Source: Hyphomicrobiales bacterium (GTDB lineage Bacteria > Pseudomonadota > Alphaproteobacteria > Rhizobiales > HXMU1428-3). From it: 42,631 bases of DNA. A model generated the notes under the pieces. It was not told the origin of the DNA, did not search any database, and saw only the letters and a list, made by a program, of their open reading frames with translations. Location of the stretch: contig JAEPQF010000013.1 in NCBI GenBank assembly GCA_017640685.1, positions 1 through 42,631 of the forward strand. The letters are read 5' to 3'. Shown here piece by piece: positions 11-24,280 of the stretch. The stretch's first letter is position 1. Each line of letters opens with the position of its first letter. A program made the position numbers and the translations under genes.

Positions 11-40
11 TTGAGGGATACGAGGCTTTTCCGCGTATTA
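11..40 (+). promoter_or_regulatory. Candidate ECF-sigma promoter of the cnrYXH-like operon
   Basis: A -35-like TTGAGGG (11-17) is followed after exactly 16 nt by a -10-like CGTATTA (34-40), 31 bp before the first start codon. The same pair with the same 16-nt spacing recurs at 1431-1460, 6646-6675 and 13507-13536. The pattern fits an ECF promoter recognised by the sigma factor encoded by the third gene of this operon, which would make the operon autoregulated. The repeat and spacing are seen directly; the link to this sigma factor is inference. Confidence 0.75.
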
Positions 41-71
41 ACTTATAAGATTTATAAACTGAGGATATAAA

Positions 72-395
72 ATGTCTCAAAATAAACTTGACGAGAATTT
101 AACCCTATTTTTTAAAAAAAGGCCGGGTACTGGTAAATTAGAAAGATTAGAGCATGATGTCTGGCGTAAAATCCATGCATATGACCTTAACTGGCAACAA
201 AAAATAATTTCGGTATTTAATTTGCCGCAGTTTCAAGCATCAGCTTTAGTCTGTGCTCTTATTTTTGGCATCAGTTTAAGTTCAACATATGAATTAGAAT
301 TATTTCTTAATTCTAAGACAAATCAAAATGTTTTAGATTTGAGGATTTTTAGTGCGAACAATCCATATTTAGCAACTAATTTATTCGGTAAATAA
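72..395 (+). CDS. cnrY: CnrY-like membrane anti-sigma factor
   Basis: This 107-residue protein has a polar, charged N-terminus of about 50 residues, one membrane segment at about residues 54-73 and a short periplasmic tail ending in NLFGK. That layout and the ending match the CnrY/NccY anti-sigma factors, whose cytoplasmic N-terminus holds the ECF sigma factor CnrH at the membrane and which receive the metal signal through CnrX. Gene order (Y, X, H) is the same as in Cupriavidus cnrYXH. Sequence similarity in the N-terminal part is weak, so the call relies on topology, the C-terminal ending and the strongly conserved neighbour CnrX. A GAGGA ribosome site lies before the ATG. The stop is directly followed by the next gene. 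Confidence 0.75.
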   Translation: MSQNKLDENLTLFFKKRPGTGKLERLEHDVWRKIHAYDLNWQQKIISVFNLPQFQASALVCALIFGISLSSTYELELFLNSKTNQNVLDLRIFSANNPYLATNLFGK

Positions 396-396
396 A

Positions 397-846
397 ATGA
401 AAAAACGCTATTTTAATGCCATAATTTTTCTTTTGCTATTTCTAGTAACTGCATTTACCGGTCTTTATATAGGTCAGAATTACTTACATTTTGAGACAAG
501 AGGCCGTGATGCCCATTCAGGCCATTGGCACCAGAAATTCCATGAGAAACTAAACATTACATCAGATCAGGCAAAAAAATTATTGAAAATTGAAGATAGT
601 TTTTCCAATAAACGTAAAGCACTAGAAAAAAGAATTTATTTAGCAAATCGAGAATTAGCACAAGCCATCAAAAAGGACAAAAATTTTAGTCTTCAAGTGC
701 AACAAGCAACCAATAAAATCCATGAGGCTATGGGGGAGTTGCAAAAGGCGACATTACAGCATTTTTTCGAAATGCGTCCAATACTGACTGAAAATCAAAA
801 TCTAAAATTAGAGAAAATGGTTTCAGATGCGCTCGAAAACAAATAA
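397..846 (+). CDS. cnrX: CnrX-like periplasmic metal sensor
   Basis: This 149-residue protein has an N-terminal membrane anchor (about residues 8-26) and a helical periplasmic domain. From KFHEKL to the end it can be aligned with Cupriavidus CnrX: LQKATLQHFFEMR here corresponds to LQRATLVHVFEMR there. The metal ligands known from CnrX (two His in HxxxH, one Glu, then His and Met in HxFEM) are present as H45/H49, E66, H122 and M126. CnrX senses Ni(II)/Co(II) in the periplasm and triggers release of CnrH from CnrY. Here the target genes look like copper genes, so the physiological metal is uncertain. The 3' end overlaps the sigma factor gene by 20 nt, suggesting translational coupling. Confidence 0.9.
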   Translation: MKKRYFNAIIFLLLFLVTAFTGLYIGQNYLHFETRGRDAHSGHWHQKFHEKLNITSDQAKKLLKIEDSFSNKRKALEKRIYLANRELAQAIKKDKNFSLQVQQATNKIHEAMGELQKATLQHFFEMRPILTENQNLKLEKMVSDALENK

Positions 847-1426
847 GGAAAATCTGTTTAATGAACAATCTTCTGATGAAGACCTTATTCATTACTTATC
901 AAAGGGGCATGAAAGGGCGCTAAATCAACTTATGGCACGCTATAAGCCAAAACTATTCTCTTTCATTTTTAAGTATGTTCAAAATGAAGACGTAGCTTAT
1001 GATTTATTACAAGAGACGTTTATTCGGGTGTATACAAAAGCGAATACATATAAACCACAGTTCGCTTTTTCAACTTGGATTTATCAGATTGCAATGAACC
1101 TCTGTCGTGACTGGGGACGAAAACAGAAGATAAGGAAAATTGTTTCTTTAGACACATATTTAGCATTTGGAAGTACCAATAGTATTAAGGATACAATTGA
1201 AGACCCTACAGCTAATATTGAAAATATTGTTGATTCCCAGAATCAGCTTCGCGCTCTTGAAAAGGAAATGCAAAACCTACCGCATAAGCTCAAAGTGGCA
1301 TTAGTACTATTTACTATTGAAGATCTATCACAAGAAGAATGCGCTAAGCTGTTGAATGTAACTACTAAAACTATAGAAACGAGAGTATATAGAGCCCGAA
1401 AAATTTTATCTGAAAAATTTCAATAA
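827..1426 (+). CDS. cnrH: ECF RNA polymerase sigma factor, CnrH-like
   Basis: This 199-residue protein has the two ECF sigma domains. Region 2 covers about residues 27-95 and includes DVAYDLLQETFIRVY and FSTWIYQIAMN. Region 4 covers about 145-197 and includes the helix-turn-helix SQEECAKLLNVTTKTIETRV. It follows a CnrY-like anti-sigma factor and a CnrX-like sensor, so it is very likely the CnrH-type sigma factor released upon metal sensing. Four sites of the form TTGARGG-N16-CGTAYTA in the window are its probable target promoters. The ATG at 827 lies inside cnrX; a slightly later start is possible, since the first ten or so residues are not conserved sigma sequence. Confidence 0.88.
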   Translation: MRSKTNKENLFNEQSSDEDLIHYLSKGHERALNQLMARYKPKLFSFIFKYVQNEDVAYDLLQETFIRVYTKANTYKPQFAFSTWIYQIAMNLCRDWGRKQKIRKIVSLDTYLAFGSTNSIKDTIEDPTANIENIVDSQNQLRALEKEMQNLPHKLKVALVLFTIEDLSQEECAKLLNVTTKTIETRVYRARKILSEKFQ

Positions 1427-1430
1427 TATT

Positions 1431-1460
1431 TTGAGGGATGTGCAAAGTTTGCACGTACTA
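1431..1460 (+). promoter_or_regulatory. Candidate ECF-sigma promoter before the 1500 gene
   Basis: TTGAGGG (1431-1437), a 16-nt spacer and CGTACTA (1454-1460) repeat the arrangement found before the cnrYXH-like operon. The spacer sequence itself is unrelated, so only the -35 and -10 elements are conserved. The site is 39 bp before the ATG of the next gene and may drive transcription on through the copper genes. Confidence 0.75.
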
Positions 1461-1499
1461 GTTACATATCGTTTTGTAATGTGAAAGGATCAATTTGAT

Positions 1500-1784
1500 A
1501 TGAAAGTATTTGTATTGGCACAATTATCTGTTTTAGTTGCATCACTTTTTTTTGTAAATCCAAGCATTGCACAGGGGAAAATCGAGTTTAAGAAGAATAA
1601 AATTAAACACTTCAGCAGATATGTCACGCCGCAAAGCAACCCAGAACATTTTTTAAGATACAATGCCTCTCGGACTTGTGGAAATGGGTATAACCCTATG
1701 ATAAAACATCATCGTAGAAACCATCGGTACCGCAGAGCTCACACACATCCATCAATGCCCTGGTATCCTGGTTGCTCCAAATGA
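1500..1784 (+). CDS. Small exported basic His-rich protein, unknown
   Basis: This 94-residue protein starts with a clear signal peptide (hydrophobic residues 4-20, likely cleavage after SIAQ). The mature part is basic, and its end is rich in His and Arg (KHHRRNHRYRRAHTH), which could bind metal. I do not recognise a family. It is directly preceded by a candidate CnrH-type promoter and by the ribosome site AAAGGA, so it is probably metal-induced. An open frame without a start codon continues across its stop in another phase (1705-1917) and reads as protein-like near its end, so a frameshift shortening this gene is possible. Confidence 0.6.
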   Translation: MKVFVLAQLSVLVASLFFVNPSIAQGKIEFKKNKIKHFSRYVTPQSNPEHFLRYNASRTCGNGYNPMIKHHRRNHRYRRAHTHPSMPWYPGCSK

Positions 1785-1870
1785 TAACTCAAATGGTAAA
1801 CAATATCGTACCTTAGTTGCAACAGTTACTCGGAATGACTTCTTTCAACTGTTACTATTATTAGAAAAAA

Positions 1871-1893
1871 TGAAACTATATGGTATAGTTTCA
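1871..1893. repeat. 10-bp inverted repeat before the czcI-like gene
   Basis: TGAAACTATA and TATAGTTTCA are perfect inverted copies separated by TGG, about 33 bp before the start codon at 1926. No T-run follows, so it does not look like an intrinsic terminator. It could be an operator, or part of the degraded coding stretch that crosses this interval. Confidence 0.4.
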
Positions 1894-1925
1894 AAAATGG
1901 ATTCGCTTAGAAAATAGTTAGATAA

Positions 1926-2360
1926 ATGAGCCGATTATTAGCACTTTTTATAATTTTTTCTATTTTAGTGGGCTCGTGCTGCACGGGTGCCTTTTCTGCT
2001 TTTGCGTTTAACTCTCATCATCAAAACAGCCTTACTACTGAGAATATTGAGGTGCATTCTGATGATCACGATCATGCTAATCATCATGAGCACGCGAAAA
2101 ACATTTCCGAGCATTCAAACGAACCTTGCGATCATAGTTCACTTGATTGCAGCCAACAAATTGCAATTAATTCGTTTGCTGATAAATTCTCAAAAAATCT
2201 GATTTTTAGTGGTAAAAAAGAATCTAAATTTTATACTGTTATAAATTCTCAAAATTTACATACATATTTTAAACAGTCACAATTTACTGATCGTTTAATA
2301 GAGTCTCAGTCAATAATTTTTCTTCCCGTTCTTGATCTAACAAGACGGTTGCGGCTCTAA
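1926..2360 (+). CDS. CzcI-like exported His-rich protein
   Basis: This 144-residue protein has an N-terminal hydrophobic signal (about residues 3-27), then a strongly His/Asp/Glu-rich stretch (HSDDHDHANHHEHAK) and Cys-containing motifs (CDHSSLDC). This layout, together with a following TolC-like gene, resembles CzcI, a small periplasmic protein encoded ahead of czcC in Cupriavidus. It probably binds metal in the periplasm. No strong ribosome site precedes the ATG. The C-terminal half (about 80-144) has no recognisable motif. The family assignment rests on layout rather than on close similarity. Confidence 0.55.
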   Translation: MSRLLALFIIFSILVGSCCTGAFSAFAFNSHHQNSLTTENIEVHSDDHDHANHHEHAKNISEHSNEPCDHSSLDCSQQIAINSFADKFSKNLIFSGKKESKFYTVINSQNLHTYFKQSQFTDRLIESQSIIFLPVLDLTRRLRL

Positions 2361-2477
2361 TTTTCTTCTCCTGAAAAATTTCAATATCATTCGACCGGTG
2401 ATTATTAAAATCATTGGCAGAACATTAACCTGCAAATTTCATTTATCGTACTCGATAAATTGCTCCGGGGGAACGCT

Positions 2478-2729
2478 GTGCTACGACCGATAATATTAAG
2501 CCTTATCGCCACGATTGGCTTATCAGGCTGTTTAAGACAAACACCAGAAATACATTTACCTGTGGGTCATCCTGCTGATCCAGGAGCAAGAACTGGTGCG
2601 CCAATAAAAATTACAAAAGCATTAAGGAACGAATTCAACGATGTGAAACCAGAACTTGGCAAAACAAAGCGAGAGCTTATAGAAACACCATCAAATGATC
2701 ATTCTGGTCATCAGATGCATAAAAATTGA
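2478..2729 (+). CDS. Small lipoprotein with His/Met-containing tail
   Basis: I chose the GTG at 2478 as start because it is preceded by GGGGGAAC and yields a proper lipoprotein signal ending in the lipobox LSGC (Cys18). A TTG at 2460 in the same frame is less likely. The mature 66 residues are hydrophilic and end in HSGHQMHKN, a possible copper-binding tail. It is 17 bp before the TolC-like lipoprotein gene and probably in the same operon. No family recognised; small lipoproteins of this sort are found beside copper oxidases in other proteobacteria (from memory). Confidence 0.65.
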   Translation: MLRPIILSLIATIGLSGCLRQTPEIHLPVGHPADPGARTGAPIKITKALRNEFNDVKPELGKTKRELIETPSNDHSGHQMHKN

Positions 2730-2746
2730 GCCTGTAGGAGGAACAA

Positions 2747-4171
2747 ATGCTTAAACAATTACAACCTACAGCACTAATTCTGATCAGCATGATTGGTTTA
2801 GCTGGCTGCGCTCAATTATCAGCCGAGCAAGCTTTTTTAGATGTATCAGACGATGTCTTAGAGAGAACAGGTCGAAAAATTTTGTGGAACTCAGGGTCAC
2901 CTGAAGACCTTCAGGCAGAGGATGTTATGAAGTCTGTTTTGTCGCGTCAATTAACGGCAAAAAATACAATACAGATTGCTCTACTTAATAATAAAGAGCT
3001 ACAAGCTTCCTACACTAAGCTAGGTGTGGCTCAAGCTGATTTAGTTCAAGCAGGACTGTTAAGCAATCCGATATTAGACGGAGCAATAACATTTCCTGAA
3101 GGCATTAGCACACCTAATCTTACATTTGGACTTGCTGTTAAATTTATCGAGATCCTTTGGATACCGCTAAAAAGAGATATTGCAACATCAGAACTTGAAA
3201 CTGTGAAGCTGGAAATTTCCGGTCTCGTAATAGATATGGTTGCGCGAACGCACACAGCTTACATAGATTATATCGCGGCACGCCAACAAGTTGAATTATT
3301 GCAACAAGTTGTTCGATCTTCGAGAGCTACCATTGAAGCAGCCAGTGCATTACGAAAAGCTGGCAATATAACTGCCCTTCAATTTGATCAACAAAAGAAT
3401 ATTTTGACATTGGCGAAACTCAATCTGGCTAAAGCTGAAACAAATGCAGTTGGAATGAAAGAAGAGTTGAATGTCTTAATGGGATTATCTGGCAAAGATA
3501 TAAATTGGAGAGCTCCCAACAGATTACCCACTCTGCCAAGATATGATGTTAAAACGGCCAATATAGAAAAAACTGCCATTGAGAACAGTTTGGACCTAGC
3601 CCAGATAAAACAATCACTATTCACTCTGGCAACAAAGTATCAATTAAAACGCAAACAATCCTTATTACCTGACCTTGAAGTAGGGGCAGAGTATGAGCGA
3701 GATGATGGTGAAAAACAGTTTGGGCCTACATTTGAAATTGAAATTCCTATCTTTGATATGGGCGAAGCGAAGCGTGCCAAAGCTAAATTGGAAATTGAAA
3801 AACTGAGAAGTCAGTATTGGTCTTTGGGTATTCAAATCAGATCTACCGCGAGATTGCTACGTGCCAAGATTTTAACAACCCGCAAAACAGTGGCTTTCTA
3901 TCGGCAAACCGTATTGCCGGAAAATAAGCAAATCGTATCTGGAGTGCAGCGTGATTATAACGCAATGCAGGCAGGCGTTTTTCAATTAATAACCGCAAAA
4001 CGTCAACAAATATCTTCTGGTCAACAATACATAGCAGCACAACAAGACTATTGGCGCGCACGTATTGCCATCAAGCAATTAATCCATGGTCGATTACCAG
4101 GCAATAATGGCGGCGCAGAACTAAACAGCACAATTTCAGCAGCAAATAATGCAGAAGGAGGAGGTCACTAA
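2747..4171 (+). CDS. TolC-family outer-membrane efflux lipoprotein
   Basis: This 474-residue protein begins with a lipoprotein signal (lipobox LAGC, Cys21), as in CzcC/CusC-type channel proteins. The body shows the duplicated TolC pattern of long amphipathic helices (for example TKLGVAQADLVQAGLLSNP and the second-half EYERDDGEKQFGPTFEIEIP). Outer-membrane factors of this family normally partner RND pumps, but no RND or membrane-fusion gene is in the window, so its partner is either elsewhere or of another kind. An AGGAGG ribosome site precedes the ATG. Its TAA overlaps the ATG of the multicopper oxidase (TAATG), which indicates a shared function and transcript. Confidence 0.85.
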   Translation: MLKQLQPTALILISMIGLAGCAQLSAEQAFLDVSDDVLERTGRKILWNSGSPEDLQAEDVMKSVLSRQLTAKNTIQIALLNNKELQASYTKLGVAQADLVQAGLLSNPILDGAITFPEGISTPNLTFGLAVKFIEILWIPLKRDIATSELETVKLEISGLVIDMVARTHTAYIDYIAARQQVELLQQVVRSSRATIEAASALRKAGNITALQFDQQKNILTLAKLNLAKAETNAVGMKEELNVLMGLSGKDINWRAPNRLPTLPRYDVKTANIEKTAIENSLDLAQIKQSLFTLATKYQLKRKQSLLPDLEVGAEYERDDGEKQFGPTFEIEIPIFDMGEAKRAKAKLEIEKLRSQYWSLGIQIRSTARLLRAKILTTRKTVAFYRQTVLPENKQIVSGVQRDYNAMQAGVFQLITAKRQQISSGQQYIAAQQDYWRARIAIKQLIHGRLPGNNGGAELNSTISAANNAEGGGH

Positions 4172-5598
4172 TGGACAGATCTCGAAGACATTTTTTAACC
4201 ACATCTGGCATTGCAGTAGCAAGCGCTACATTGGCAAGTAAAGACCTATTGGCACAAGAAAAGCATGATATGAGAGGCTCCCATTCAGGTCATAAAATGG
4301 AAATGGGACAGAAAAACAAACCGCTTGCAAAAGTGACCGGGTCTGGAAAATACAACACACCGAGGGGGAATGAGTTTTATGCACGGTCAGTTGATCCTGA
4401 TGAAACTTATAATCCTGGAGAACCCATTAAAGATTACACACCTGTTGTTGTTCCAAATGGAAGCACACTGCCATTTAAAATTGTTGATGGTATTAAAGTA
4501 TTTCACCTGATCGCCGAAGAAGTATTCCACGAATTTGCCCCTGGGCTTAAGTCACATTGTTGGGGGTATAACGGACAGGTGCATGGTCCTGTTATTGAAG
4601 CTGTTGAAGGCGATAATATTAGGATTTATGTTACCAATAAATTAGAGGTGCCAACGACAGTACATTGGCATGGCTTAATTTTACCTATGGGAATGGACGG
4701 TGTCGCAGGGCTTACACAACGCACAATTAAACCGGGTGAAACTTTTAAATATGAGTATAAGCTAATTCAACACGGCACCTTTATGTATCACTCACATAAA
4801 GACGCCATGACTCAGGAAGGTATGGGATTAATGGGCATGTTTATTGTTCATCCCCGCAAACCAAAAAGAGAACGTCCCGATCGTGATTTTGTACTTTTGA
4901 TGTCTGAGTGGGACATAAAACCTGGGACATACAGACCAGACACAAGTGTAGCCAGTGGATATAATACGCTTACTCTAAATGCTAAAGTTTTCCCCGGAAC
5001 GGAAGCTCTCGTCTGCAAGTTGAACGAAAAAATACGCATCCGGGTTGGTAATTTATCAGCCATGGATCATCATCCTTTCCATTTACATGGTTACGCGTTC
5101 AAGGTCACAGAAACAGACGGGGGTGAAATTCCTGAATCTGGGCAGTGGCCTGAAGTCACAGTTTTGGTCTCTGTTGGTCAGACGAGAAATATTGAATTCG
5201 TCGCGGATAACCCAGGTGATTGGGCAATGCATTGCCATATGACCCATCACACGATGAACCAAATGGGGCACGGCTTACCAAATATGGTTGGTATTAAGAC
5301 AACTGGACTTGATCAAAAGGTTGGTGATTTATTGCCCGGCTATATGACCATGGGTGCAAATGGCATGGGAGATATGGGCAAGCATGCACAGCATATGGAC
5401 ATGCCCGAAAATAGCATCCCTATGGTGGGCACCGAGGGGCTCCACGATTACATCGGCATGGGCGGTATGTTCACTGTGTTTAAAGTTCGTGAAAACATTG
5501 AAAACTATGACGACCCCGGCTGGTACAAACCACCTAGTGGAACTTTGGTAGGACCTGCCACTAAGGAAGAATTAAATCGTGATGGAATTAAAACATAG
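4171..5598 (+). CDS. Tat-exported multicopper oxidase
   Basis: This 475-residue protein starts with a twin-arginine signal (SRRHFLTT, residues 4-11). The four copper-binding segments of multicopper oxidases are present in order: HWHG (165-168), HSH (207-209), HPFHLHG (301-307) and HCHMTHH (354-360). The His-Cys-His in the last provides the type 1/type 3 centre. Met/His-rich stretches occur near the start (HSGHKMEMG) and after residue 390 (Met-Gly-His-rich), typical of cuprous oxidases and copper-resistance oxidases. It probably oxidises Cu(I) in the periplasm. It overlaps the TolC-like gene by one base and is followed by a cytochrome c, a possible electron partner. Confidence 0.93.
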   Translation: MDRSRRHFLTTSGIAVASATLASKDLLAQEKHDMRGSHSGHKMEMGQKNKPLAKVTGSGKYNTPRGNEFYARSVDPDETYNPGEPIKDYTPVVVPNGSTLPFKIVDGIKVFHLIAEEVFHEFAPGLKSHCWGYNGQVHGPVIEAVEGDNIRIYVTNKLEVPTTVHWHGLILPMGMDGVAGLTQRTIKPGETFKYEYKLIQHGTFMYHSHKDAMTQEGMGLMGMFIVHPRKPKRERPDRDFVLLMSEWDIKPGTYRPDTSVASGYNTLTLNAKVFPGTEALVCKLNEKIRIRVGNLSAMDHHPFHLHGYAFKVTETDGGEIPESGQWPEVTVLVSVGQTRNIEFVADNPGDWAMHCHMTHHTMNQMGHGLPNMVGIKTTGLDQKVGDLLPGYMTMGANGMGDMGKHAQHMDMPENSIPMVGTEGLHDYIGMGGMFTVFKVRENIENYDDPGWYKPPSGTLVGPATKEELNRDGIKT

Positions 5599-5607
5599 GA
5601 GGTAACT

Positions 5608-6006
5608 ATGAATAAATATGTATGGTTTGTACTTCTGGGATTTATTACCATCACGGTATTTTTCATATCTCTGTCTTTTAAAAATAAAGATCTAGCTGTG
5701 CAAGTAAAATTACCTAAACAGTTTTCCAGAACTGCTATCGAGGGAGGAAAACTTTTCAATAAAAACTGTATGGTTTGCCATGGGAAATATGGTAGTGGCA
5801 CCGAAAAAGGACCACCGCTTATTCATAAATACTATGAACCCAATCACCATTCTGATCGTTCATTTTTTCTTGCTGTTAAAAACGGTGTCAGACCTCATCA
5901 TTGGCAATTTGGGATGATGCCACCGATCAAAGGTGTAACCCGTTCAGACGTAGAAAAAATCATTCCTTATATAAGGGAGATACAAAGAGAAAATGGAATT
6001 TTCTAG
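5608..6006 (+). CDS. Membrane-anchored monoheme cytochrome c
   Basis: This 132-residue protein has one N-terminal membrane segment (about residues 4-23) and one heme-binding CMVCH motif (54-58). The FGMMPP segment near residue 102 supplies the likely axial methionine. It would sit on the periplasmic face. Its position between a multicopper oxidase and a cupredoxin suggests electron transfer linked to copper oxidation, although no substrate is proven. AGGAGGT precedes the ATG, and the gene lies 9 bp after the oxidase stop. Confidence 0.88.
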   Translation: MNKYVWFVLLGFITITVFFISLSFKNKDLAVQVKLPKQFSRTAIEGGKLFNKNCMVCHGKYGSGTEKGPPLIHKYYEPNHHSDRSFFLAVKNGVRPHHWQFGMMPPIKGVTRSDVEKIIPYIREIQRENGIF

Positions 6007-6069
6007 AAAAATCCAGTCAATGACGAATGGATAGTTACTTTAACAAATCAATATATTAAGAGGTATAAA

Positions 6070-6624
6070 ATGATTACCCCACTGACCCAATTTACAAAAC
6101 CTGTCATTTCACTAATTTCAACGACAGTATTAACTATAGCACTAACCTCACCTATTCATGCTGCTGGCAAAGGTCATGATGGTCATCACAGTCATGTTAA
6201 TAAAAAAGCACATATGACCGCTGGTGGTCAGCCTGGCAAAGCTACTGAGATAGATCGTACGATAGAAATTATTGCCACCGATGATTTAAAATTTAGTCAC
6301 TCTTCATTGGAAGTTAAAGATGGTGAGACCATTAAATTCGTTCTTATAAATAAAGGTGAGAGTGCTCACGATTTTACAATTGGAACTCCTGAAATTCAGG
6401 TTGCTCATCAAAAAGAAATGTCAAAAATGATGGAAGCTATGGATTCACATGAAGGCCATAAAATGGAGCATAATGATCCGAACGCGTTGTTTCTAAACCC
6501 TGGTGAGAAAAAAGAATTGATCTGGAAATTTAAAAACACAGCCATGCTTGAATTTGGTTGCAATGTGCCTGGTCATTATCAAGCAGGAATGAAAGGTAAC
6601 TTTAAATTTAAAGGCATGAAATAA
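6070..6624 (+). CDS. Cupredoxin-domain periplasmic copper protein
   Basis: This 184-residue protein has a signal peptide ending near SPIHAA (about residue 32) and a His-rich linker (HDGHHSH). The plastocyanin/azurin-like fold spans about 64-184. Type 1 copper ligands are visible as H100 (AHDF), C164, H169 and M174 in GCNVPGHYQAGM. An extra Met/His-rich loop (about residues 112-135, with DSHEGHKMEH) is inserted between the first and second ligands and may bind additional copper. It probably carries copper or electrons in the periplasm alongside the upstream oxidase and cytochrome. Confidence 0.88.
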   Translation: MITPLTQFTKPVISLISTTVLTIALTSPIHAAGKGHDGHHSHVNKKAHMTAGGQPGKATEIDRTIEIIATDDLKFSHSSLEVKDGETIKFVLINKGESAHDFTIGTPEIQVAHQKEMSKMMEAMDSHEGHKMEHNDPNALFLNPGEKKELIWKFKNTAMLEFGCNVPGHYQAGMKGNFKFKGMK

Positions 6625-6645
6625 TCAAAAAAATTACAAAATTGT

Positions 6646-6675
6646 TTGAGGGTTTCTTCCCAGAGAACCGTATTA
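6646..6675 (+). promoter_or_regulatory. Candidate ECF-sigma promoter before the 6706 gene
   Basis: TTGAGGG (6646-6652), a 16-nt spacer and CGTATTA (6669-6675) match the site before the cnrYXH-like operon exactly in both elements and in spacing. It lies 30 bp before the ATG of a small exported protein and may also serve the Met-rich protein gene beyond. Confidence 0.75.
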
Positions 6676-6705
6676 GTCACATAACCAAACTAAAAGGAGT
6701 TCGAA

Positions 6706-6891
6706 ATGAGTAAGACCTTTAAATCTATACTGCTTGCTGTTTTAATTTTAGTTCCAACGCATGCTTTTGCAGCAGTGAATGCTCAGGATAGCAATAAGTT
6801 TTTAAATCAAAATATCATTTTAGATCATAACCTTGTGGTTAAAGAAGATCCTGCGTCTGATCTTGATACCATGACAGATGACGGAGGTTAA
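6706..6891 (+). CDS. Small exported acidic protein, unknown
   Basis: This 61-residue protein has a signal peptide (hydrophobic 7-18, likely cleavage after AFA near residue 22). The mature part is about 39 residues, acidic at its end (DPASDLDTMTDDGG). AAAAGGAG precedes the ATG, and a candidate CnrH-type promoter lies just upstream, which makes real expression likely. I recognise no family. It has no Cys or His cluster, so metal binding would have to involve Asp or Glu. Confidence 0.6.
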   Translation: MSKTFKSILLAVLILVPTHAFAAVNAQDSNKFLNQNIILDHNLVVKEDPASDLDTMTDDGG

Positions 6892-6908
6892 TTCGCCTCA
6901 GACTTCTC

Positions 6909-6955
6909 TTATCTCCTCTCAGGCTTATATCTGATCTCAAGCAGAGAGGAGATAA
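6909..6955. repeat. Perfect 12-bp inverted repeat between 6706 and 7015 genes
   Basis: TTATCTCCTCTC (6909-6920) and GAGAGGAGATAA (6944-6955) are perfect inverted copies around a 23-nt loop. The T-run expected of a terminator is absent, as the sequence goes on AATATAATGCG. It may be a transcript stabiliser, an attenuator or an operator acting on the downstream Met-rich protein gene. Confidence 0.5.
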
Positions 6956-7014
6956 ATATAATGCGTTATGACTAAAAATTATTTTTTCGACCTACAATAA
7001 AATGGAGAATAGAT

Positions 7015-7395
7015 ATGAAAAAAATACTGAAAACCTTACTGATTGCTACAGCACTAACATCACCGATAGCAGCTAATGCCGGTAACCACAATCATAGTAA
7101 AGGTCAAATGGGTTCTACGGACATGTGTGTAACTGGAGAAAAATGCCCAATGGCAGATCAAATGGGCAAGATGCAGACCAAGATGGGCAGTATGATGACT
7201 CATATGCAGGGCATGATGGAGATGATGAAAGACCCCGATATGAAAAAGAAAATACAGAAAATGCACGTTGATATGGGAAGTATGATGCAACACATGCAAC
7301 AGATGCACAAACAAATGGGAACCATGATGGGAGGAAAAGGCATGATGCATGAGCATAATAATAAAAATAAAGAGAATGGAAAACACAAACACTAA
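7015..7395 (+). CDS. Exported Met/His-rich copper-binding protein
   Basis: This 126-residue protein has a signal peptide (residues 1-22, ending in ANA). Its mature part is packed with Met (MQGMMEMMKDPDM, MQQMHKQMGTMMGG) and ends in a His/Lys-rich tail. Two Cys lie in CVTGEKC near residue 40. Met-rich arrays of this kind bind Cu(I) in periplasmic copper proteins, so a buffering or sequestration role fits. GGAG precedes the ATG. It shares no clear family with CopZ or PcoE beyond composition. Confidence 0.7.
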   Translation: MKKILKTLLIATALTSPIAANAGNHNHSKGQMGSTDMCVTGEKCPMADQMGKMQTKMGSMMTHMQGMMEMMKDPDMKKKIQKMHVDMGSMMQHMQQMHKQMGTMMGGKGMMHEHNNKNKENGKHKH

Positions 7396-7410
7396 GCAGG
7401 GAAGCAAGCT

Positions 7411-7671
7411 ATGCAGCATGACCATGAACATTATCACAAACCAGAGCATAAGGAAAAATGGTGGCAAACCAATACCGGCATGCTGCTGGTCGTTCTTTTT
7501 GCCGTGGGTGGATACTATCTCATTAAAGCACATGGGGCGCATATTGCAGAAAACTGGTTCCTGCTGATTTTGCTACTGTGCCCACTGATGCATGTATTTA
7601 TGCATGGAGGGCATGGTGGCCATGGGAAGCATCGCCAACATGATGATAACGATAATGACAGGGAGGCGTAA
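7411..7671 (+). CDS. DUF2933 small His-rich membrane protein
   Basis: This 86-residue protein has a His-rich N-terminus (HDHEHYHKPEHKEKW), two membrane segments (about 25-40 and 48-63) and a tail with GGHGGHGKHR. The pattern corresponds to DUF2933 proteins, which are repeatedly found next to the methyltransferase and copper ATPase genes seen downstream. The function is unknown, but the His clusters suggest metal binding at the inner membrane. From here to 12.1 kb the DNA is visibly more GC-rich than the sequence before it, which points to a separately acquired block. Confidence 0.75.
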   Translation: MQHDHEHYHKPEHKEKWWQTNTGMLLVVLFAVGGYYLIKAHGAHIAENWFLLILLLCPLMHVFMHGGHGGHGKHRQHDDNDNDREA

Positions 7672-7673
7672 CC

Positions 7674-8321
7674 ATGCATGGAACAGAATCAGCTTACGGC
7701 TTATGGACATTGGTTATCATTAATTCGGCGATTTTTATCATCTTCGCCTTTAGTTTTTTCAAACCCCAGACCAAACGGGACTGGCGCTCATTCAGTGCGT
7801 TCTCGGCCTTTATTGTAGCATTGTTTGTAGAGATGTACGGCTTCCCGCTCACCATCTATCTGTTTTCAGGTTGGCTAACCGCCAACTATCCGGGGGTGGA
7901 TTTCCTCTCCCATGAAAACGGTCATTTGCTACATACGATTTTTGGATTCGAAGGGAATGCTCATTTTGACCCTTTGCACATAGCCAGCATTATTTTTATC
8001 GGCCTGGGCTTCATTATGCTCTCGGCAGCCTGGAATGTGCTCTATAAAGCACAGCGTGCCGGAAAGCTCGCAGTGACCGGGCTGTATGCCAAGATGCGCC
8101 ACCCGCAATATATCGGTTTTGTTGCCATTATGTTTGGCTTTTTGCTGCAATGGCCGACCATTATCACGGTGATTATGTTCCCGATATTGGTGGTGATGTA
8201 TTGGCGTTTAGCCAAAAAAGAAGAGCGTGATTCCAAAGAACGATTTGGCAAAGCGTGGGATGATTACAAGGCGCATGTTCCAGCCTTCATTCCAAAATGG
8301 AGCACCGTATTTAGCAACTAA
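7674..8321 (+). CDS. ICMT-like membrane methyltransferase family protein
   Basis: This 215-residue protein has about five membrane segments and the C-terminal signature of the isoprenylcysteine carboxyl methyltransferase / PEMT-like family: MRHPQYIGF near residue 141, then EERDSKERFGKAWDDYKA near 182-199. These motifs bind S-adenosylmethionine in the family. The bacterial substrate is unknown, and its repeated linkage with copper genes suggests a role in metal stress. The start codon is 2 bp after the DUF2933 stop, preceded by GGGAGG. Confidence 0.8.
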   Translation: MHGTESAYGLWTLVIINSAIFIIFAFSFFKPQTKRDWRSFSAFSAFIVALFVEMYGFPLTIYLFSGWLTANYPGVDFLSHENGHLLHTIFGFEGNAHFDPLHIASIIFIGLGFIMLSAAWNVLYKAQRAGKLAVTGLYAKMRHPQYIGFVAIMFGFLLQWPTIITVIMFPILVVMYWRLAKKEERDSKERFGKAWDDYKAHVPAFIPKWSTVFSN

Positions 8322-8336
8322 CAAAGGAGGTCTATT

Positions 8337-8510
8337 ATGGATCAGGTAAAAGAAAATCAAATAAATGAGCAAGCAGCATCCGGTGGGTGCTGCTGCAGCT
8401 CAAAAAAGCAGGCAAAGCCGGAAGTGGAAGTAAAGAAAGAAACCAAACCTTCCTGCTGCACAAAAACAGAAGATGAAAAAGAGTACCCGATGAGCAATAC
8501 GGCGGATTAA
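8337..8510 (+). CDS. 57-residue Cys-rich metallothionein-like peptide
   Basis: A short gene with a strong ribosome site (AAAGGAGG, 7 nt before ATG) encodes 57 residues with a CCC cluster at 18-20, a CC pair at 40-41 and a Lys/Glu-rich remainder. There is no signal peptide, so it should be cytoplasmic. Its place inside a copper operon, 15 bp after the methyltransferase and 19 bp before the permease, supports a role in binding Cu(I) and perhaps handing it to the ATPase further on. It is not a classic metallothionein sequence. The call rests on composition and context. Confidence 0.7.
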   Translation: MDQVKENQINEQAASGGCCCSSKKQAKPEVEVKKETKPSCCTKTEDEKEYPMSNTAD

Positions 8511-8529
8511 TACTAAAACAGGAAACACT

Positions 8530-9855
8530 ATGGATCATTCAAAGCATGGCAGATCGGCAAATTATAAGAAAAACAGCTTAACCGTTGTCGGTGCGGTATC
8601 CATGGGTACCGGCGTGATGATTGGGGCGGGTATTCTGGCACTTACCGGGCAAATGGCCGAGCTGGCAGGCTCGCTCTTTCCGGTTGTGTTTCTTGCCGCT
8701 GCCATTGTGACAGCGTTTAGTGCCTATTCTTATGTGAAAATGTCCAATGCCTTTCCATCCGCTGGTGGCATTGGCATGTTTTTGGAAAAAGCCTATGGGC
8801 GCACCACGATGACGGCTGCCAGTGCGCTTCTCATGTATTTTTCGATGGTGATTAATGAAAGCCTGGTGGCGCGAACCTTTGCCACGTACAGCACCCAGCT
8901 ATTTGATGCCGAGCCAGCTGGCTGGGTGATTCCGGCTTTAGGTGTAGGGCTGCTATTCTTTGCATTTTTGATTAATATTGCCGGCAACCGGATGATTGGA
9001 GCATTTTCGCTGATCATGGCCTTTATCAAGATCGGCGGCATTGCGGTGTTCGCGTTGGCCGGTTTGTGGCTCTCCGGTCTTAATTTTGAAGTCAGCCCTG
9101 TCAATACCACGGAAACCTCCGTTGAAGGGTTCCTGGCTGCCATGGCGTTGGCCATCCTTGCCTATAAAGGTTTTACCACCATCACCAATAGCGGTTCGGA
9201 GATTATTGATCCTCATCGCAATGTGGGCAGAGCCATTATCATTTCCATTGCTATTTGTGTGGTGGTGTATGTGTTGGTTGCACTGGCAGTAGCAGGCAAT
9301 TTAAGCCTGGGAGAGATTATTGCTGCCAAGGATTTCGCCTTAGCACAAGCCGCACGCCCGGCCTTTGGTGAATTTGGCCTATGGTTTACGGTGATATTGG
9401 CGATTGTTGCCACCGTCTCCGGCGTAATTGCCAGCGTGTTTGCGGTATCGCGGATGTTGGCCATGCTCACCGATATGAAACTGGTGCCACACAGCCACCT
9501 TGGTATGCCAGGAGATGTGCAAAAACATACGCTGGTCTACACGGTGGTGCTGGCCATGTTCCTCACGGTCTTTTTTGATTTGAGCCGCATCGCCTCCCTG
9601 GGTGCTATCTTCTATATCACCATGGATATCGCCGTGCATTGGGGCGTGTTCCGCTATTTGCGCAAAGAGATTAACGCCAACGGATTCATCCTGATTTCTG
9701 CCATCATCTTTGATGTGGTAGTGCTGGGCGCATTCCTAATGGTGAAAGCACGCACCGATATGATGGTGATCTATGCTGCCATTATCGGCATGGCATTGAT
9801 TTTCATCGGCGAACGCATTTTCTTACACAGACAATATCAAAACCAGGAGAGTTAA
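8530..9855 (+). CDS. APC-family permease
   Basis: This 441-residue protein has about twelve hydrophobic membrane segments. It begins with the APC-superfamily signature GTGVMIGAGILALTGQ (about residues 27-42), and YKGFTTITNSGSEIIDPHRN near 215-234 corresponds to the conserved cytoplasmic segment of amino-acid/polyamine permeases. The substrate cannot be told from sequence. Its location between a Cys-rich peptide and a copper ATPase, with its TAA directly abutting the ATPase ATG, suggests a role in metal stress, for example cysteine, histidine or polyamine uptake (speculative). Confidence 0.85.
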   Translation: MDHSKHGRSANYKKNSLTVVGAVSMGTGVMIGAGILALTGQMAELAGSLFPVVFLAAAIVTAFSAYSYVKMSNAFPSAGGIGMFLEKAYGRTTMTAASALLMYFSMVINESLVARTFATYSTQLFDAEPAGWVIPALGVGLLFFAFLINIAGNRMIGAFSLIMAFIKIGGIAVFALAGLWLSGLNFEVSPVNTTETSVEGFLAAMALAILAYKGFTTITNSGSEIIDPHRNVGRAIIISIAICVVVYVLVALAVAGNLSLGEIIAAKDFALAQAARPAFGEFGLWFTVILAIVATVSGVIASVFAVSRMLAMLTDMKLVPHSHLGMPGDVQKHTLVYTVVLAMFLTVFFDLSRIASLGAIFYITMDIAVHWGVFRYLRKEINANGFILISAIIFDVVVLGAFLMVKARTDMMVIYAAIIGMALIFIGERIFLHRQYQNQES

Positions 9856-12114
9856 ATGGCACATTCACACCAGCACAAAGCGGCAAAGAAAGAAGATCAT
9901 TCATGCTGCGAAACACATGACCACCATCACGCCTCCGGCGATAAGCCGGTCAAAGGTGGCAAGCATGATAAGGTGCCGGAGGGATTTAGCGGCACGGTTT
10001 ATACCTGTCCAATGCACCCGGAAGTGCGCAACCCTGGGCCGGGGTCATGCCCGATCTGCGGTATGGGGCTTGAGCCGGAAAAGGCTGCTATTGGTGAGGA
10101 TGAAGGGCCGAATCCGGAGCTGGTAGATTTTACCCGCCGCTTTTGGGTGGGTACTGTTTTAACCATCCCATTGCTGATTTTAGCGATGTCACCCTTTGTT
10201 GGGCTAACCGCCATCAGAGAGTTTTTCGGTGAGCGCACCACGCTTTGGATAGAGTTGGTGTTAGGCACACCGGTGATCCTATGGTCGGGCTGGCCGTTTT
10301 TTGTGCGCGGATATCATTCCTTCCGCACCATGAATCTCAATATGTTTAGCCTGATCGGCATGGGTACGGGTGCGGCGTATATTTTCAGTGTAGTGGCGGT
10401 GCTGGTGCCAGATATTTTCCCCGATGGGTTCCGTGACGCAGAAGGCCATGTCGGTGTCTATTTTGAAGCGGCGGCGGTGATTGTCACGCTGGTGCTTCTT
10501 GGGCAAATTATGGAGCTGCGTGCGCGTGAACGCACCGGATCAGCCATTAAGGCATTACTTGATATGGCAGCAAAAACCGCCCGTGTGATCCGCGAAGATG
10601 GCACGGAAGAGGAAATCCCGCTTGAAGATGTGCAGGTAGGTGACAAATTGCGCGTGCGTCCAGGCGATAAGGTGCCGGTCGATGGCAAGGTGCTGGATGG
10701 CCGTTCTTCGGTCGATGAATCAATGATCTCCGGTGAGCCAGTACCGGTTGAAAAGGTCGCCGGGGATGCTGTCACCGGTGCTACCATCAACGGCACGGGT
10801 AGTTTAATCATTGAAGCCACACGGGTGGGCGCAGATACCATGCTCTCACAAATCGTGGATATGGTTGCCAATGCGCAAAGATCGCGTGCGCCGATTCAGA
10901 AATATGCCGATATGGTCGCCGGGTATTTTGTACCCGTGGTGATTGTTGTCGCTATTTTATCCTTTATTGGCTGGGCAATGTGGGGGCCAGCTCCGGCGCT
11001 GTCTTACGGTTTGGTAGCAGCGGTGGCAGTGCTTATTATTGCATGCCCATGTGCGCTTGGGCTTGCCACACCAATGTCGATCATGACCGCCACCGGGCGC
11101 GGAGCACAAGCCGGGGTGTTGATTAAAAATGCCGAAGCGCTGGAGCGTTTTGAAAAAGTGGACATATTGATTGTCGATAAAACTGGCACGCTCACCGAAG
11201 GAAAGCCAAAACTGGTGGCGGTGTTGCCCGAAGAAGGGCATGACGAGGCAGAGGTGCTTCGCCTGGCAGCCTCATTAGAACGCGGCTCAGAACATCCTTT
11301 GGCAGAAGCGATTGTGCGCGGCGCAGAAGAGCGCAAGGTTGACATGGCCGATGCCACGGATTTTGAAGCGGTTACCGGCAAAGGCGTAAAAGGTGTGGTC
11401 GATGGCCATGCGGTAGCACTTGGCAATGCCGCGCTTATCTCCGATATGGGTCTGGATAGCGGCAAGCTGGTTGAAACCGCCAATGCGCGGCGTGATGAAG
11501 GTGAAACCGTGATGTTCGTGGTGCTTGATGACGCAATTGCCGGGCTGGTCAGCGTGGCTGATCCGGTCAAGGAAACCACCCCCGCAGCCCTAAAAGAACT
11601 GCATGATCTGGGCTTTCGGATTATCATGGCGACCGGCGATAATGAACGCACGGCAAAAGCGGTGGCGGCGCGTTTGGGTATTGATGAGATTCGCGCCGAT
11701 GTGCTGCCGGAAGATAAAGCCCGAATCATTAAAGAGCTTCAAGACCAGGGTTTGAAAGTTGCCATGGCCGGTGATGGGGTCAATGACGCACCCGCATTAG
11801 CGCAGGCCGATGTAGGAATTGCCATGGGAACCGGCGCAGATGTCGCTATTGAAAGCGCAGGCTTTACCCTGATCAAAGGCAATCTTGATGGTATTGTCCG
11901 TGCTCGCCGCCTGGTGCGTGCGACCATGCGTAACATCCGACAGAATCTATTCTTTGCGCTGGTCTATAATGCTGCCGGTGTGCCGGTAGCGGCAGGGCTT
12001 TTATTCCCGATGTTTGGCATATTAATCAGCCCAATGTTTGCAGCCTTTGCTATGAGCGCATCTTCCGTCTCGGTAGTAATGAATGCGCTGCGCCTGCGGC
12101 GGGTGAAAATTTAA
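9856..12114 (+). CDS. copA: Cu+-exporting P1B-type ATPase
   Basis: This 752-residue ATPase has a His/Cys-rich N-terminus ([11 protein letters not shown]) followed by the heavy-metal-binding motif CPMHPEV (51-57) and [10 protein letters not shown] (65-74), instead of CxxC MxCxxC domains. Catalytic motifs are in place: SGEP in the actuator domain, CPCALG in the sixth membrane segment (Cys at about 397), phosphorylated Asp in DKTGT (D441), TGDN, and [10 protein letters not shown] (about 639). YN in the seventh segment and MSASS in the eighth mark the Cu+ subgroup (P1B-1). It pumps Cu(I) from cytoplasm to periplasm. The nearby oxidase can then oxidise it. Confidence 0.93.
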
Positions 12115-12131
12115 AGAGTGAGCCAATTACC

Positions 12132-12511
12132 ATGAAGTATCTAGCAGGTAAGAAAGGATTGATTATTGGCATTGCCAACGTGGATCCATTGCATGGGGCT
12201 GCACTAAAGCCTTCCATGAGGCCGGTGCCGAGCGGGCAATCACGTACCTCAATGAAAAAGCAGAAGCCTATGTGCGCCCATTGGCAGAAAAGGTAAAAGT
12301 GCCCATCAACGTGCCGCTTGATGTCAGCGATGAAGAGCAGCTGGAAACATTGTTTCAGATTATCGGCAACACGTGGGGCAAGCGGGACTTTCTGCTACAC
12401 TCCATCGCCTATGCTCCCAAAGAAGATTTGCATGGACGTAGCTGATTGCTCACGCCAGGGATTTCTTACCGCCATGCATATCTCTTGCTATTCTTTTATC
12501 CGGCTGGCTAT
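12132..12511 (+). pseudogene. fabI: Frameshifted 5' fragment of enoyl-ACP reductase FabI
   Basis: The start reads MKYLAGKKGLIIGIAN, the FabI N-terminus. After about 12195 the match continues in another frame (FHEAGAERAITYLNEKAEAY through LLHSIAYAPKEDLHGR), and after about 12440 it shifts again (ADCSRQGFLTAM, CYSFIRLA). Only about half of FabI is present; the catalytic Tyr-Lys region is missing. The NADH-binding start motif is damaged as well. The fragment stops at about 12511, where sequence of a copper ATPase begins, so this is a recombination relic and not a functional gene. Confidence 0.85.
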
Positions 12512-12606
12512 TGTCTCCCATGATCGCAGCAGCTGCAATGAGTTTATCTTCTGTTTCTGTTATTGCAAACGTCTTGCGGTTGCGGCACGTCGATTTGCAC
12601 CATTAA
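12503..12606 (+). pseudogene. C-terminal fragment of a second Cu-ATPase
   Basis: In the frame starting at 12481, the sequence SGWLLSPMIAAAAMS and SSVSVIANVLRLRHV, ending at TAA 12604-12606, is the last membrane segment and tail of a P1B-1 ATPase. It is comparable to [13 protein letters not shown] near the end of the intact ATPase upstream, yet clearly a different copy. It is joined to a FabI fragment at the shared string TATCCGGCTGGCTA (about 12499-12512). The rest of that ATPase gene is absent. Confidence 0.8.
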
Positions 12607-12867
12607 AATGAACCAGTGAACTTACATTAATTCAAATAGTAAATTATGGGTTTTACTTAATCAAGAATTTGAGTTGGAGTTTGTCTTTAATTATTCGTCG
12701 AAATAAGTAAAATTCAGTTAGGGGTAGTTATTGCATATAGAAAAACAATTAGGTCACAAGAAATCAACAATAACTGAGCGTTATGCCCATCTTGGTAATA
12801 TGTAGATATATTGTTACTCTCGGAACATTTTCATTAAACTCCAGATCATTGGATAAAGGAGATGTTC

Positions 12868-13242
12868 ATGAACTAATATCAACGCGAGATACAACCTAAA
12901 CTTCGCAAATTAAAAAACGCTGATAAGACTGGTTACGTTACAAAGATATGTAGGTACTTTAGGGTTGGTCGAGCAAGTTTTTATCGTTGGAGAGAGGCTT
13001 ATAAAAAGCATGTTGAAGTTAAAGGGATTCAACATGCCTACATCAAACCCGGCACGCCACAATTAAATAGAAAAATCGAGCGATCGCATAGATCTCACGG
13101 ACAAGGATTTTATCAACTTCTAACTTATAAAGGTGATCTTGAGGCAAAGCTTGATGAATAGGAACGATTTTATAACTTCCACCGATCTCATGGTGTATTC
13201 AATAGAAAAACACCTTACGAAGCGTTAAGAGAAAAGCTATAA
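12868..13242 (+). pseudogene. Degraded IS481-type transposase
   Basis: One continuous frame from ATG 12868 to TAA 13240-13242 carries both ends of an IS481/IS3-like transposase but lacks the middle. KICRYFRVGRASFYRW is the N-terminal helix-turn-helix. After about residue 52 it jumps to the C-terminal integrase-core part (GIQHAYIKPGTPQLNRKIER, then ERFYNFHRSHG and TPYEALREKL). Two in-frame stops are present (codon 3 and TAG at 13159-13161). The DDE core has lost at least its first Asp. No terminal repeats were identified. Confidence 0.8.
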
Positions 13243-13506
13243 TCAGTGAATTGAATGTTCCGCTGCTAACAGCACTCTACAACGTGTTTTTGATTGTCCC
13301 ACCACCGCTGATTTCAACATATTTTTACATAGGACAGTTTGGGTTGACCCTGATCGCTGTTATTGTTGTGGTCCGGGTCTTTCTGTCATATGCCTTATAT
13401 CTCATTCTTCTGCCTTCCAGCGGATGTAGCCACCCTATATCTAATTTATTTCATCGTTCATAATAAATGCTTTTGAAAATGCCCTCATATTTTTATTTAA
13501 ATAATT
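13243..13506. other. No recognisable gene; decayed intergenic DNA
   Basis: An open frame of about 70 codons exists here (about 13251-13463), but it lacks a ribosome site and recognisable similarity, and competing frames look equally protein-like. I see decayed DNA between the IS relic and the next candidate promoter. Confidence 0.5.
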
Positions 13507-13536
13507 TTGAAGGATGAAGCGTTACAAACCGTATTA
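13507..13536 (+). promoter_or_regulatory. Candidate ECF-sigma promoter, fourth copy
   Basis: TTGAAGG (13507-13513), a 16-nt spacer and CGTATTA (13530-13536) match the three other sites with a single change in the -35 element. It lies 84 bp before the ATG at 13620 and faces the small genes 13620-14216, extending the apparent regulon to the far side of the IS and FabI relics. Confidence 0.7.
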
Positions 13537-13619: not shown

Positions 13620-13823
13620 ATGAATATAATCATTAAAGCAGTAGTGATTACAGCTGCAATTAATTTGCTAGTGAGTGCATACGCTGAGACGGAAACTAAA
13701 ACAATTGGCAAAATGAAAGACATGTAAGAAAAGATGTCTGAGACGGACGGCAATAAAAATGACACGAAAAAAGACACTGTCAACGATAATGGAGATCACA
13801 CAAAGCATTATGGGAAACAATAA
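13620..13823 (+). pseudogene. Small exported protein gene with premature stop
   Basis: From ATG 13620 the sequence encodes a signal peptide (hydrophobic residues 7-20, cleavage near AYA), then TKTIGKMKDM and a TAA stop at 13725-13727. The same frame continues after the stop for 31 codons of hydrophilic, Lys/Asp-rich sequence (NDTKKDTVNDNGDHTKH) to TAA 13821-13823. The likeliest reading is one 67-residue exported protein interrupted by a nonsense mutation; alternatively a 35-residue peptide is made. A candidate CnrH-type promoter lies upstream. Confidence 0.5.
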
Positions 13824-17532: not shown

Positions 17533-17556
17533 GCAAAACGAAAAACATAATTTATG

Positions 17557-19326: not shown

Positions 19327-19340
19327 GTGATTGGCTCCTG

Positions 19341-19541: not shown

Positions 19542-19637
19542 CAAAAACTCCTTACATTTTTTTCTGAGAACATATATAGAACATAGTTTCGTTTCGGCCT
19601 AGCTAATTTTAAGGCCACTGCATTCACTGGTGTGCTG

Positions 19638-20501: not shown

Positions 20502-20524
20502 TAGCCTCCTCCTTTCATTAAAGT

Positions 20525-20560
20525 TTGCAGAGTGAATTTATTTTCTGATATGCTTGTTTC
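20525..20560 (+). promoter_or_regulatory. Sigma70-like promoter of a probably leaderless gene
   Basis: TTGCAG (20525-20530), an 18-nt spacer and TATGCT (20549-20554) end six bases before ATG 20561. Transcription would start at or next to the start codon, and no ribosome site exists, which suggests a leaderless message. Confidence 0.45.
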
Positions 20561-20866: not shown

Positions 20867-20868
20867 CC

Positions 20869-22921: not shown

Positions 22922-22925
22922 CTTC

Positions 22926-24269: not shown

Positions 24270-24280
24270 GATTTTAACTC

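Follow-up and report, generated by a model that had tools for sequence, protein, structure and literature searches.

The closest described relative of the system considered here is CnrYXH of Cupriavidus metallidurans, whose genes lie on plasmid pMOL28 in the order cnrY, cnrX, cnrH and cnrC. Primer extension placed the transcription starts of the promoters cnrYp and cnrCp 24 and 25 nt before the respective genes; the source treats both as non-RpoD starts controlled by the extracytoplasmic function (ECF) sigma factor CnrH, and it places a separate RpoD-dependent promoter upstream of cnrY (PMC9045368). Met123 of the sensor CnrX is described as a ligand needed for signalling (PMC7689651). Here we analyse a 42,631-nt stretch of DNA from a Hyphomicrobiales bacterium (assembly GCA_017640685.1, contig JAEPQF010000013.1; hereafter the window), which carries four copies of the promoter-like element TTGARGG-N16-CGTAYTA in a metal island that includes the genes of a putative anti-sigma factor (Y), a sensor (X) and an ECF sigma factor.

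We consider it likely, with a probability of about 0.85, that the sites are promoters of the sigma factor encoded beside them, and that the whole forms a copper-linked variant of the CnrYXH kind. A preliminary description of the window, made from its letters alone, had proposed an autoregulated regulon of one CnrH-like sigma factor. It was largely right in this respect, too strong on the novelty of the promoter consensus and incomplete as to the regulated genes.

Four exact sites and their conservation beside sensor-linked sigma genes

A scan of the window with TTGARGG-N16-CGTAYTA returned four zero-mismatch sites, all on the plus strand and exactly at the coordinates given in the preliminary description (Table 1). 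The distances from CGTAYTA to the following start codons are 31, 39, 30 and 83 nt for sites 1 to 4, in agreement with the range of 30-85 bp proposed there. The spacers are mutually unrelated as judged by eye, and the boxes alone are shared within the genome. Exact matches never arose when the window was shuffled 100 times with its dinucleotides preserved (mean 0.00, maximum 0, versus 4 observed), on which ground chance was rejected as their origin. With up to three mismatches the window has 11 matches versus 8.64 expected, and only the exact ones stand out. The same rarity is seen in the bacterium's own 3.5-Mb assembly, whose exact matches are the four island sites only. One mismatch adds 4 further places, and a reversed control pattern gives 2+2. 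The genome-wide scan suggested earlier thus confines the exact matches to the island, but one-mismatch matches are no commoner than those of the reversed control; a regulon spread over the bacterium's own genome was rejected, as there is no motif excess outside the island. The stricter pattern TGAGGG-N16-CGTANNA is found three times in the genome, each time in the island, and its control not at all.

We also scored the window with a position matrix built from 24 sites of other genomes, with congeners included and the own genome excluded; as some of these sites were selected by their AGGG/CGTA core, the matrix overstates the fixed columns. It ranks the four sites first to fourth in the window, with scores of 22.1, 22.1, 16.3 and 15.3, the next place reaching 9.9. 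Among 400 simulated windows, a score of 15.3 or higher arose on average 0.11 times per window, and a single window contained three or more. On the strength of these scores and of the conservation described below, sites 1 to 3 may be regarded as firm as a set, and site 4 alone may not. The four-member regulon of the preliminary description accordingly holds for sites 1 to 3 and is less certain for site 4, the lowest scorer.

The least biased test of conservation is a comparison of 19 loci, because these were drawn by sigma similarity alone. A search of 385 genomes of the class Alphaproteobacteria with a 13-row sigma alignment (E <= 1e-35, up to 8 candidates scored per genome) matched 19 genomes, the own included, and yielded 19 loci outside the own genome; an earlier scan of 289 class genomes with a single sigma sequence (E <= 1e-30) had found the own genome only. 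According to an X-protein profile, four of the 19 loci have an X gene just upstream of sigma, and all four carry the motif at two places, ahead of Y and where the sigma gene ends. None of the 15 X-less loci has it on either strand (50.7 kb).

When all alphaproteobacterial loci with the Y-X-sigma arrangement are taken together, the core AGGG-N16/17-CGTA lies before Y in 22/25 and just after sigma in 23/25, versus 0/15 in the related sensor-less loci. Within the genus both places are occupied in 4/4 loci, and in other Alphaproteobacteria in 18/21 (before Y) and 19/21 (after sigma), the 21 consisting of the four class-search loci, 15 hand-picked plasmid loci and two genome loci. The core thus tracks sensor-bearing sigma loci across Alphaproteobacteria, as expected from the link to cnrH homologues that had been proposed. 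GC-rich relatives have lost the leading TT (GGGAGGG, GCGAGGG) and kept AGGG and CGTA. Elsewhere in the 21 non-genus loci, the core occurs twice on the sigma strand and 18 times on the reverse strand. In the five loci that were read (L049, L050, L052, L053 and L054), the reverse-strand core precedes a divergent gene for CopC or a copper-binding protein. A Methylocapsa locus with no annotated sensor gene (L055) was negative in the zero-mismatch scan and is excluded from the core counts, and two short partial sigma matches (L018, L019) were submitted to the exact scan only. In two uncultured Alphaproteobacteria, similar sites with one or two mismatches lie directly before cytochrome c and copper-type ATPase genes (L016 at 9100 and 19487, L017 at 9108 and 18081, all on the minus strand), from which the make-up of the regulon seems to have been reshuffled between islands.

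The eight family genomes compared, the own included, all belong to one genus. Three congeners encode a close sigma factor (G001, 83% identity; G002, 66%; G004, 64%), and all three have the core before Y and after sigma. The counterpart of site 1 is exact in G001 and G004; in G002, two mismatches to the full pattern are found at both places. Site 3 has an exact counterpart ahead of the orthologue of its gene in both G001 and G004; none was found in G002. G005 and G006 encode only sigma relatives of 27-30% identity, whose loci (L013, L014, L047, L048) showed no site and stand outside the core counts, and G003 (78% complete) and G007 gave no sigma at E <= 1e-15. These four congeners without a close sigma have no exact motif match. 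Beyond its two exact island sites, G001 has five one-mismatch matches, versus two for the control.

The preliminary description had presented the motif as a new promoter consensus. This was too strong, because the same core, spaced by 17 nt, is found at cnrYp and cnrCp: in our reading of the -35 region, AAGGG-N17-CGTATAA precedes cnrY and GAGGG-N17-CGTATAG precedes cnrC. The published start lies 6 nt downstream of the CGTATAR box at either promoter. This layout recurs, likewise with N17, in another Cupriavidus locus (L102), so that the Cupriavidus cnr loci have the core in 2/2 at each of the two places. By its sequence, the promoter class would therefore be one known in kind, of which the window has a version with a spacer one base shorter. 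The starts predicted in Table 1 carry the 6-nt offset of cnrYp and cnrCp over to the window.

Two spacers have features of their own. That of site 2 contains a perfect palindrome, GTGCAAA-G-TTTGCAC (1440-1454), which overlaps the -10 box by one base and is absent at the corresponding site in G001, G002 and G004. Although spacers vary elsewhere, that of site 1 (18-30, ATACGAGGCTTTT) is identical in three species, namely in the window, in L042 (around 17410, minus strand) and in L046 (around 18176, minus strand).

The Y-X-sigma module and the adjoining copper genes

The sensor X has structural matches in CnrX (3zg1, 1.4e-17) and NccX (4clv, 1.1e-15). The metal ligands of CnrX also include His42, His46, Glu63 and His119; the numbers 42, 46 and 63 agree with the residue count along the CnrX row of our alignment. 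The positions aligned with His42, His46 and Glu63, together with an HxxxM motif that holds Met123, are conserved in 10/10 X proteins, CnrX included, and the same ten proteins have HxxxH in common.

The sigma factor matches CnrH (4cxf) at 8.7e-13. A maximum-likelihood tree of 46 sigma factors has a branch (support 97/95) that separates 24 sensor-linked ones, CnrH among them, from those of the 15 X-less loci and from seven further sigma factors of the own genome. The tree is taken as unrooted; L105-L107, close relatives of rows that were kept, were not entered, L088 and L089 gave no domain, and of the own genome's 21 region-4 matches nine were tried, of which seven could be placed. The region 4 match of the window sigma extends to residue 193 of 199, leaving no tail, and its two Cys residues, located by eye, are distant from each other.

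Y occupies the place of the anti-sigma factor CnrY and, by eye, has one likely membrane stretch. Its resemblance to CnrY is limited to position, similar length and partly similar ends, and it has no Pfam or NCBIfam match. An anti-sigma role is suggested by its position and by the CnrYXH model, and Y appears to be the weak link of the comparison. Most Y proteins, CnrY included, have [LIV]-[DE] near the start, and a PxxLL-like end is found except in the window's genus; such conserved ends may be functional contacts.

The genes that follow the sites form, by their sequences, a copper island and not a nickel/cobalt efflux locus: in place of a resistance-nodulation-division (RND) pump of the CnrCBA type, they encode a multicopper oxidase, a cupredoxin, a cytochrome c and a copper ATPase. 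Genomic context elsewhere points in the same direction. We searched equal loci of about 3.5 kb with 23 island genes by tblastn; the query set, copper-island genes together with Cnr and CusA-like ones, limits the search to neighbours of these kinds. A multicopper oxidase gene was found in 4/4 sensor-bearing class loci, and none of the 23 island genes had a match in the 15 sensor-less loci (two of which span 2.8 kb). When longer stretches are considered, 25/25 alphaproteobacterial Y-X-sigma loci are accompanied by genes of copper type (copper-type ATPase, multicopper oxidase, CopB or CopC/D), a count that includes plasmids, the window, congeners, L016, L017 and L097-L100, and in which the unannotated L104 and L108 were scored by tblastn. 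The evidence consists of a heavy-metal ATPase beside cueR and an RND pump, without a multicopper oxidase, in L051, and of an ATPase similar to that of the window in L016 and L017, the latter with an RND pump as well.

Table 1. Candidate promoters and genes of the island (window coordinates; ORF, open reading frame)
Feature	Position	Strand	Description
Site 1	11-40	+	Exact match; -35 TTGAGGG 11-17, -10 CGTATTA 34-40; precedes Y-X-sigma operon; predicted +1 about 46
Y	72-395	+	ORF, 107 aa; place of anti-sigma CnrY
X	397-846	+	Periplasmic metal sensor, CnrX-like; Pfam PF13801 Metal_resist 4.8e-14
ECF sigma	827-1426	+	CnrH-like; ORF overlaps end of X; Sigma70_r2 3.5e-16, r4_2 2.9e-11
Site 2	1431-1460	+	Exact match; -10 CGTACTA 1454-1460; directly after sigma gene, before copper genes; predicted +1 about 1466
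Small His-rich protein	1500-1784	+	ORF, first gene after site 2; exported as judged by eye
Outer-membrane efflux protein	2747-4171	+	OEP family, PF02321 6.4e-30
Multicopper oxidase	4171-5598	+	PF07732 4.3e-36, PF07731 4.3e-29
Cytochrome c	5608-6006	+	PF00034 2e-10
Cupredoxin-like protein	6070-6624	+	PF00127 1.3e-07
Site 3	6646-6675	+	Exact match; before second half of island; predicted +1 about 6681
Small 61-aa protein	6706-6891	+	ORF after site 3; exported as judged by eye
Copper-type P-type ATPase	9856-12114	+	PF00122 2.6e-56; TIGR01511 (copper-translocating) 7.1e-175, above cut-off
Site 4	13507-13536	+	Exact match to the pattern, TTGAAGG; weaker candidate promoter; predicted +1 about 13542
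Short ORF	13620-13727	+	35 codons, after site 4; export-like start, in-frame TAA 13725-13727; read by eye

How such a system might work can be sketched by analogy with CnrYXH. In the resting state, Y and the periplasmic sensor X would presumably keep sigma at the membrane. A metal, most likely copper, would bind X and cause the release of sigma, which would then direct RNA polymerase to AGGG-N16-CGTA promoters, where transcription would begin some 6 nt downstream of the seven-base CGTANNN box. Site 1 would amplify the Y-X-sigma operon, hence autoregulation. Site 2 is predicted to drive the genes of the small exported protein, the outer-membrane protein, the multicopper oxidase, the cytochrome c and the cupredoxin, and site 3 a second block that possibly reaches to the copper ATPase gene. 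As for site 4, it could be a weaker or decaying member of the regulon. Recognition of the promoters by sigma, its sequestration by Y, the copper signal, the extents of the operons and the starts are all steps that we infer.

Alternative readings of the sites

Several observations weigh against a copper-linked system of the CnrYXH kind, or limit how far the comparison can be taken. Neither Y of the window nor that of L049 is recognised by the CnrY/NccY model NF033790, to which CnrY itself scores 137 bits, and a profile alignment of Y with CnrY has a probability of 3%, which does not support homology. The window sigma is only 25% identical to CnrH and, in a single-sequence search, matches RpoE-type factors of solved structure (5e-25) better than it matches CnrH. 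The sensor retains the ligand set of a nickel/cobalt sensor, and for this reason its sequence would be no proof of copper sensing. As to the sites, the best matrix score per simulated window (n=60, mean 12.1) reaches a maximum of 18.1, which exceeds sites 2 and 4 taken singly. The plasmid loci were chosen by hand from match lists and not at random, and several sphingobial loci are near-copies, so that the effective number of loci lies below 25 (below 21 outside the genus). The strict core is missing at both places in L050 and L051, and before Y in L109. Because neither Y nor the regulated genes correspond to those of Cupriavidus, we file the system as a copper-linked variant; it would not be CnrYXH proper.

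That the sites are read by another ECF factor of the cell, to which the CnrH-like protein is merely adjacent, appears unlikely. Overlapping promoter specificities are common among ECF factors, and the own genome has 21 sigma-region-4 matches, 19 of them above the cut-off. The window sigma had been described as the only ECF factor of the window, with which the ORF lists agree by eye; its exclusive claim to the sites is presumptive because of these matches. Nevertheless, the motif accompanies X-bearing sigma loci across the class and is missing from all 15 related X-less loci, the seven other sigma factors placed in the tree fall outside the Y-X-sigma group, and no exact copies of the motif exist elsewhere in the genome. 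Recognition by the housekeeping sigma-70 is less probable still. The boxes could be parsed as TTGAGG and GTATTA with an 18-nt spacer, low-GC copies start with TTGA, GTATTA resembles a -10 hexamer, and the cnrY gene of Cupriavidus also has its RpoD-dependent promoter (PMC9045368). This reading was rejected since relatives conserve AGGG and CGTA, even where TT is lost, and not the hexamers TTGACA and TATAAT. Furthermore, the genome has no exact copy of the motif outside the island, and the cnrYp and cnrCp starts are assigned to CnrH control in the source cited. An operator for a metalloregulator of the CueR, CopR or CsoR type, in place of a core promoter, would suit copper genes, which are often under such regulators, and genes for CueR, MerR-type or metal-sensitive regulators lie near several relatives. 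It is nonetheless hard to reconcile with two boxes that by eye are neither palindromic nor repeats of each other, with a spacer fixed in length and variable in sequence, and with the right half of the element 6 nt before the reported cnr starts. By eye, no such regulator is present among the window ORFs, the family scans having covered island genes only. We therefore give this explanation very little weight. What would speak for a repeat borne on a mobile element is that ORFs of relaxase and recombinase type, recognised by eye, lie next to the island. Such a repeat was rejected because the spacers are unrelated and corresponding sites are conserved in other species; like chance, which the shuffles speak against, it is next to negligible.

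A further possibility is that only sites 1 to 3 are functional and that site 4 is a chance or decayed match. We rate it as somewhat less probable than an even bet; it would refine, and is compatible with, the preferred reading of the sites as promoters of the adjacent sigma factor. In its off-consensus -35 box, an A replaces the first G of GGG, which is fixed in 24/24 training sites (themselves partly core-selected). Scores as high as that of site 4 come up 0.11 times per simulated window, its region has no match in any of the seven congeners, and an exact GAAGG-type match also lies on another contig of G002 (C1:1267853), away from the island. However, site 4 matches the pattern exactly on the same strand, lies beside an export-type ORF and is the sole exact match besides sites 1 to 3 in 3.5 Mb. 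The preliminary description considered this ORF a broken exported protein. The in-frame stop agrees with this, but the ORF may instead be naturally short, as it has no counterpart in the seven congeners.

Neighbouring genes and related systems

Between the small His-rich protein encoded after site 2 and the outer-membrane efflux protein, the island encodes a 144-aa protein and a small protein that by eye is a likely lipoprotein. The His-rich protein has no family match in Pfam or NCBIfam; it shares 76%, 54% and 58% identity over the aligned part with its relatives in G001, G002 and G004. The multicopper oxidase stays under the curated CopA cut-off (166 of 479 bits). The block after site 3 comprises the 61-aa exported protein (61% identity in G001, 75% in G004), a Met-rich protein, a DUF2933 protein, ICMT-family and amino-acid-permease-family proteins and the copper-type P-ATPase. 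The ICMT-family and permease genes thus lie inside a copper island (7674-9855); the permease gene recurs in G001, G002, G004 and L017 at 71-82% identity. Between the intact ATPase gene and site 4 (12120-12611), an enoyl-ACP-reductase-like remnant and the C-terminal part of another copper ATPase were seen by eye, which suggests a rearrangement of the island. Farther on, relaxase, recombinase and conjugation-type genes (15824-29019, by eye) suggest a mobile element, and an 1807-aa ORF with a nucleoside-triphosphatase-like look (33387-38810, by eye) is possibly a defence gene.

We recognised no paper that describes a CnrYXH-like system over copper genes; our search covered an open library outside which the main ECF classification lies, so a published group consensus may exist. 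Other ECF systems linked to copper are of different kinds. CorE of Myxococcus xanthus is a copper-dependent ECF sigma factor that activates multicopper oxidase and copper ATPase genes (PMC10141476). A Cys-rich extension at its own C-terminus controls CorE, whereas the window sigma lacks one and is accompanied by X and Y; control of the CorE type was rejected on the absence of such a tail. In Caulobacter, SigF-NrsF is an alphaproteobacterial ECF system induced by copper (PMC8224329). It differs from that of the window in its promoter, GTAACC-N16-CGAA (PMC3511200), its anti-sigma factor and its targets. The anti-sigma model of Acinetobacter SigAb resembles CnrY, and its promoter is different again (PMC12153292).

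The sphingomonad and Caulobacteraceae loci come closer. Annotated as a hypothetical protein, a periplasmic heavy metal sensor and an RNA polymerase sigma factor beside CopA and CopB, they share with the window the Y-X-sigma module and the copper genes alongside it, and most of them also the promoter core before Y and after sigma. They often have a divergent copCD and a CopA-CopB pair, in place of which the window encodes an outer-membrane protein, a cytochrome c, a cupredoxin and a multicopper oxidase that is shorter. We lean towards the view that all these loci represent a widespread copper-responsive branch of the CnrYXH kind in Alphaproteobacteria, in which a CnrX-like sensor with nickel/cobalt ligands reports copper, the anti-sigma factor is divergent and sigma reads AGGG-N16-CGTA throughout plasmid and chromosomal copper islands. 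The combination of AGGG-N16-CGTA with a CnrX-type sensor gene in the locus would predict metal regulons in uncultured bacteria and plasmid-borne copper islands.

For NccYXH, the comparison covered the structure of X. With CnrYXH of C. metallidurans, the window shares the order Y-X-sigma, a CnrX-like sensor with the same ligands, a sigma factor that groups with CnrH, a promoter before Y and another right after the sigma gene, and the core AGGG...CGTA. It differs in having copper genes in place of the CnrCBA nickel/cobalt pump, a spacer of 16 instead of 17, a Y protein not recognised as CnrY and extra promoter sites within the island. If the copper-responsive branch is real, the question arises of how the same set of sensor ligands serves copper in one lineage and nickel/cobalt in another, and the Cupriavidus nickel/cobalt systems would be an offshoot that has acquired new targets and whose promoter spacer is one base longer.

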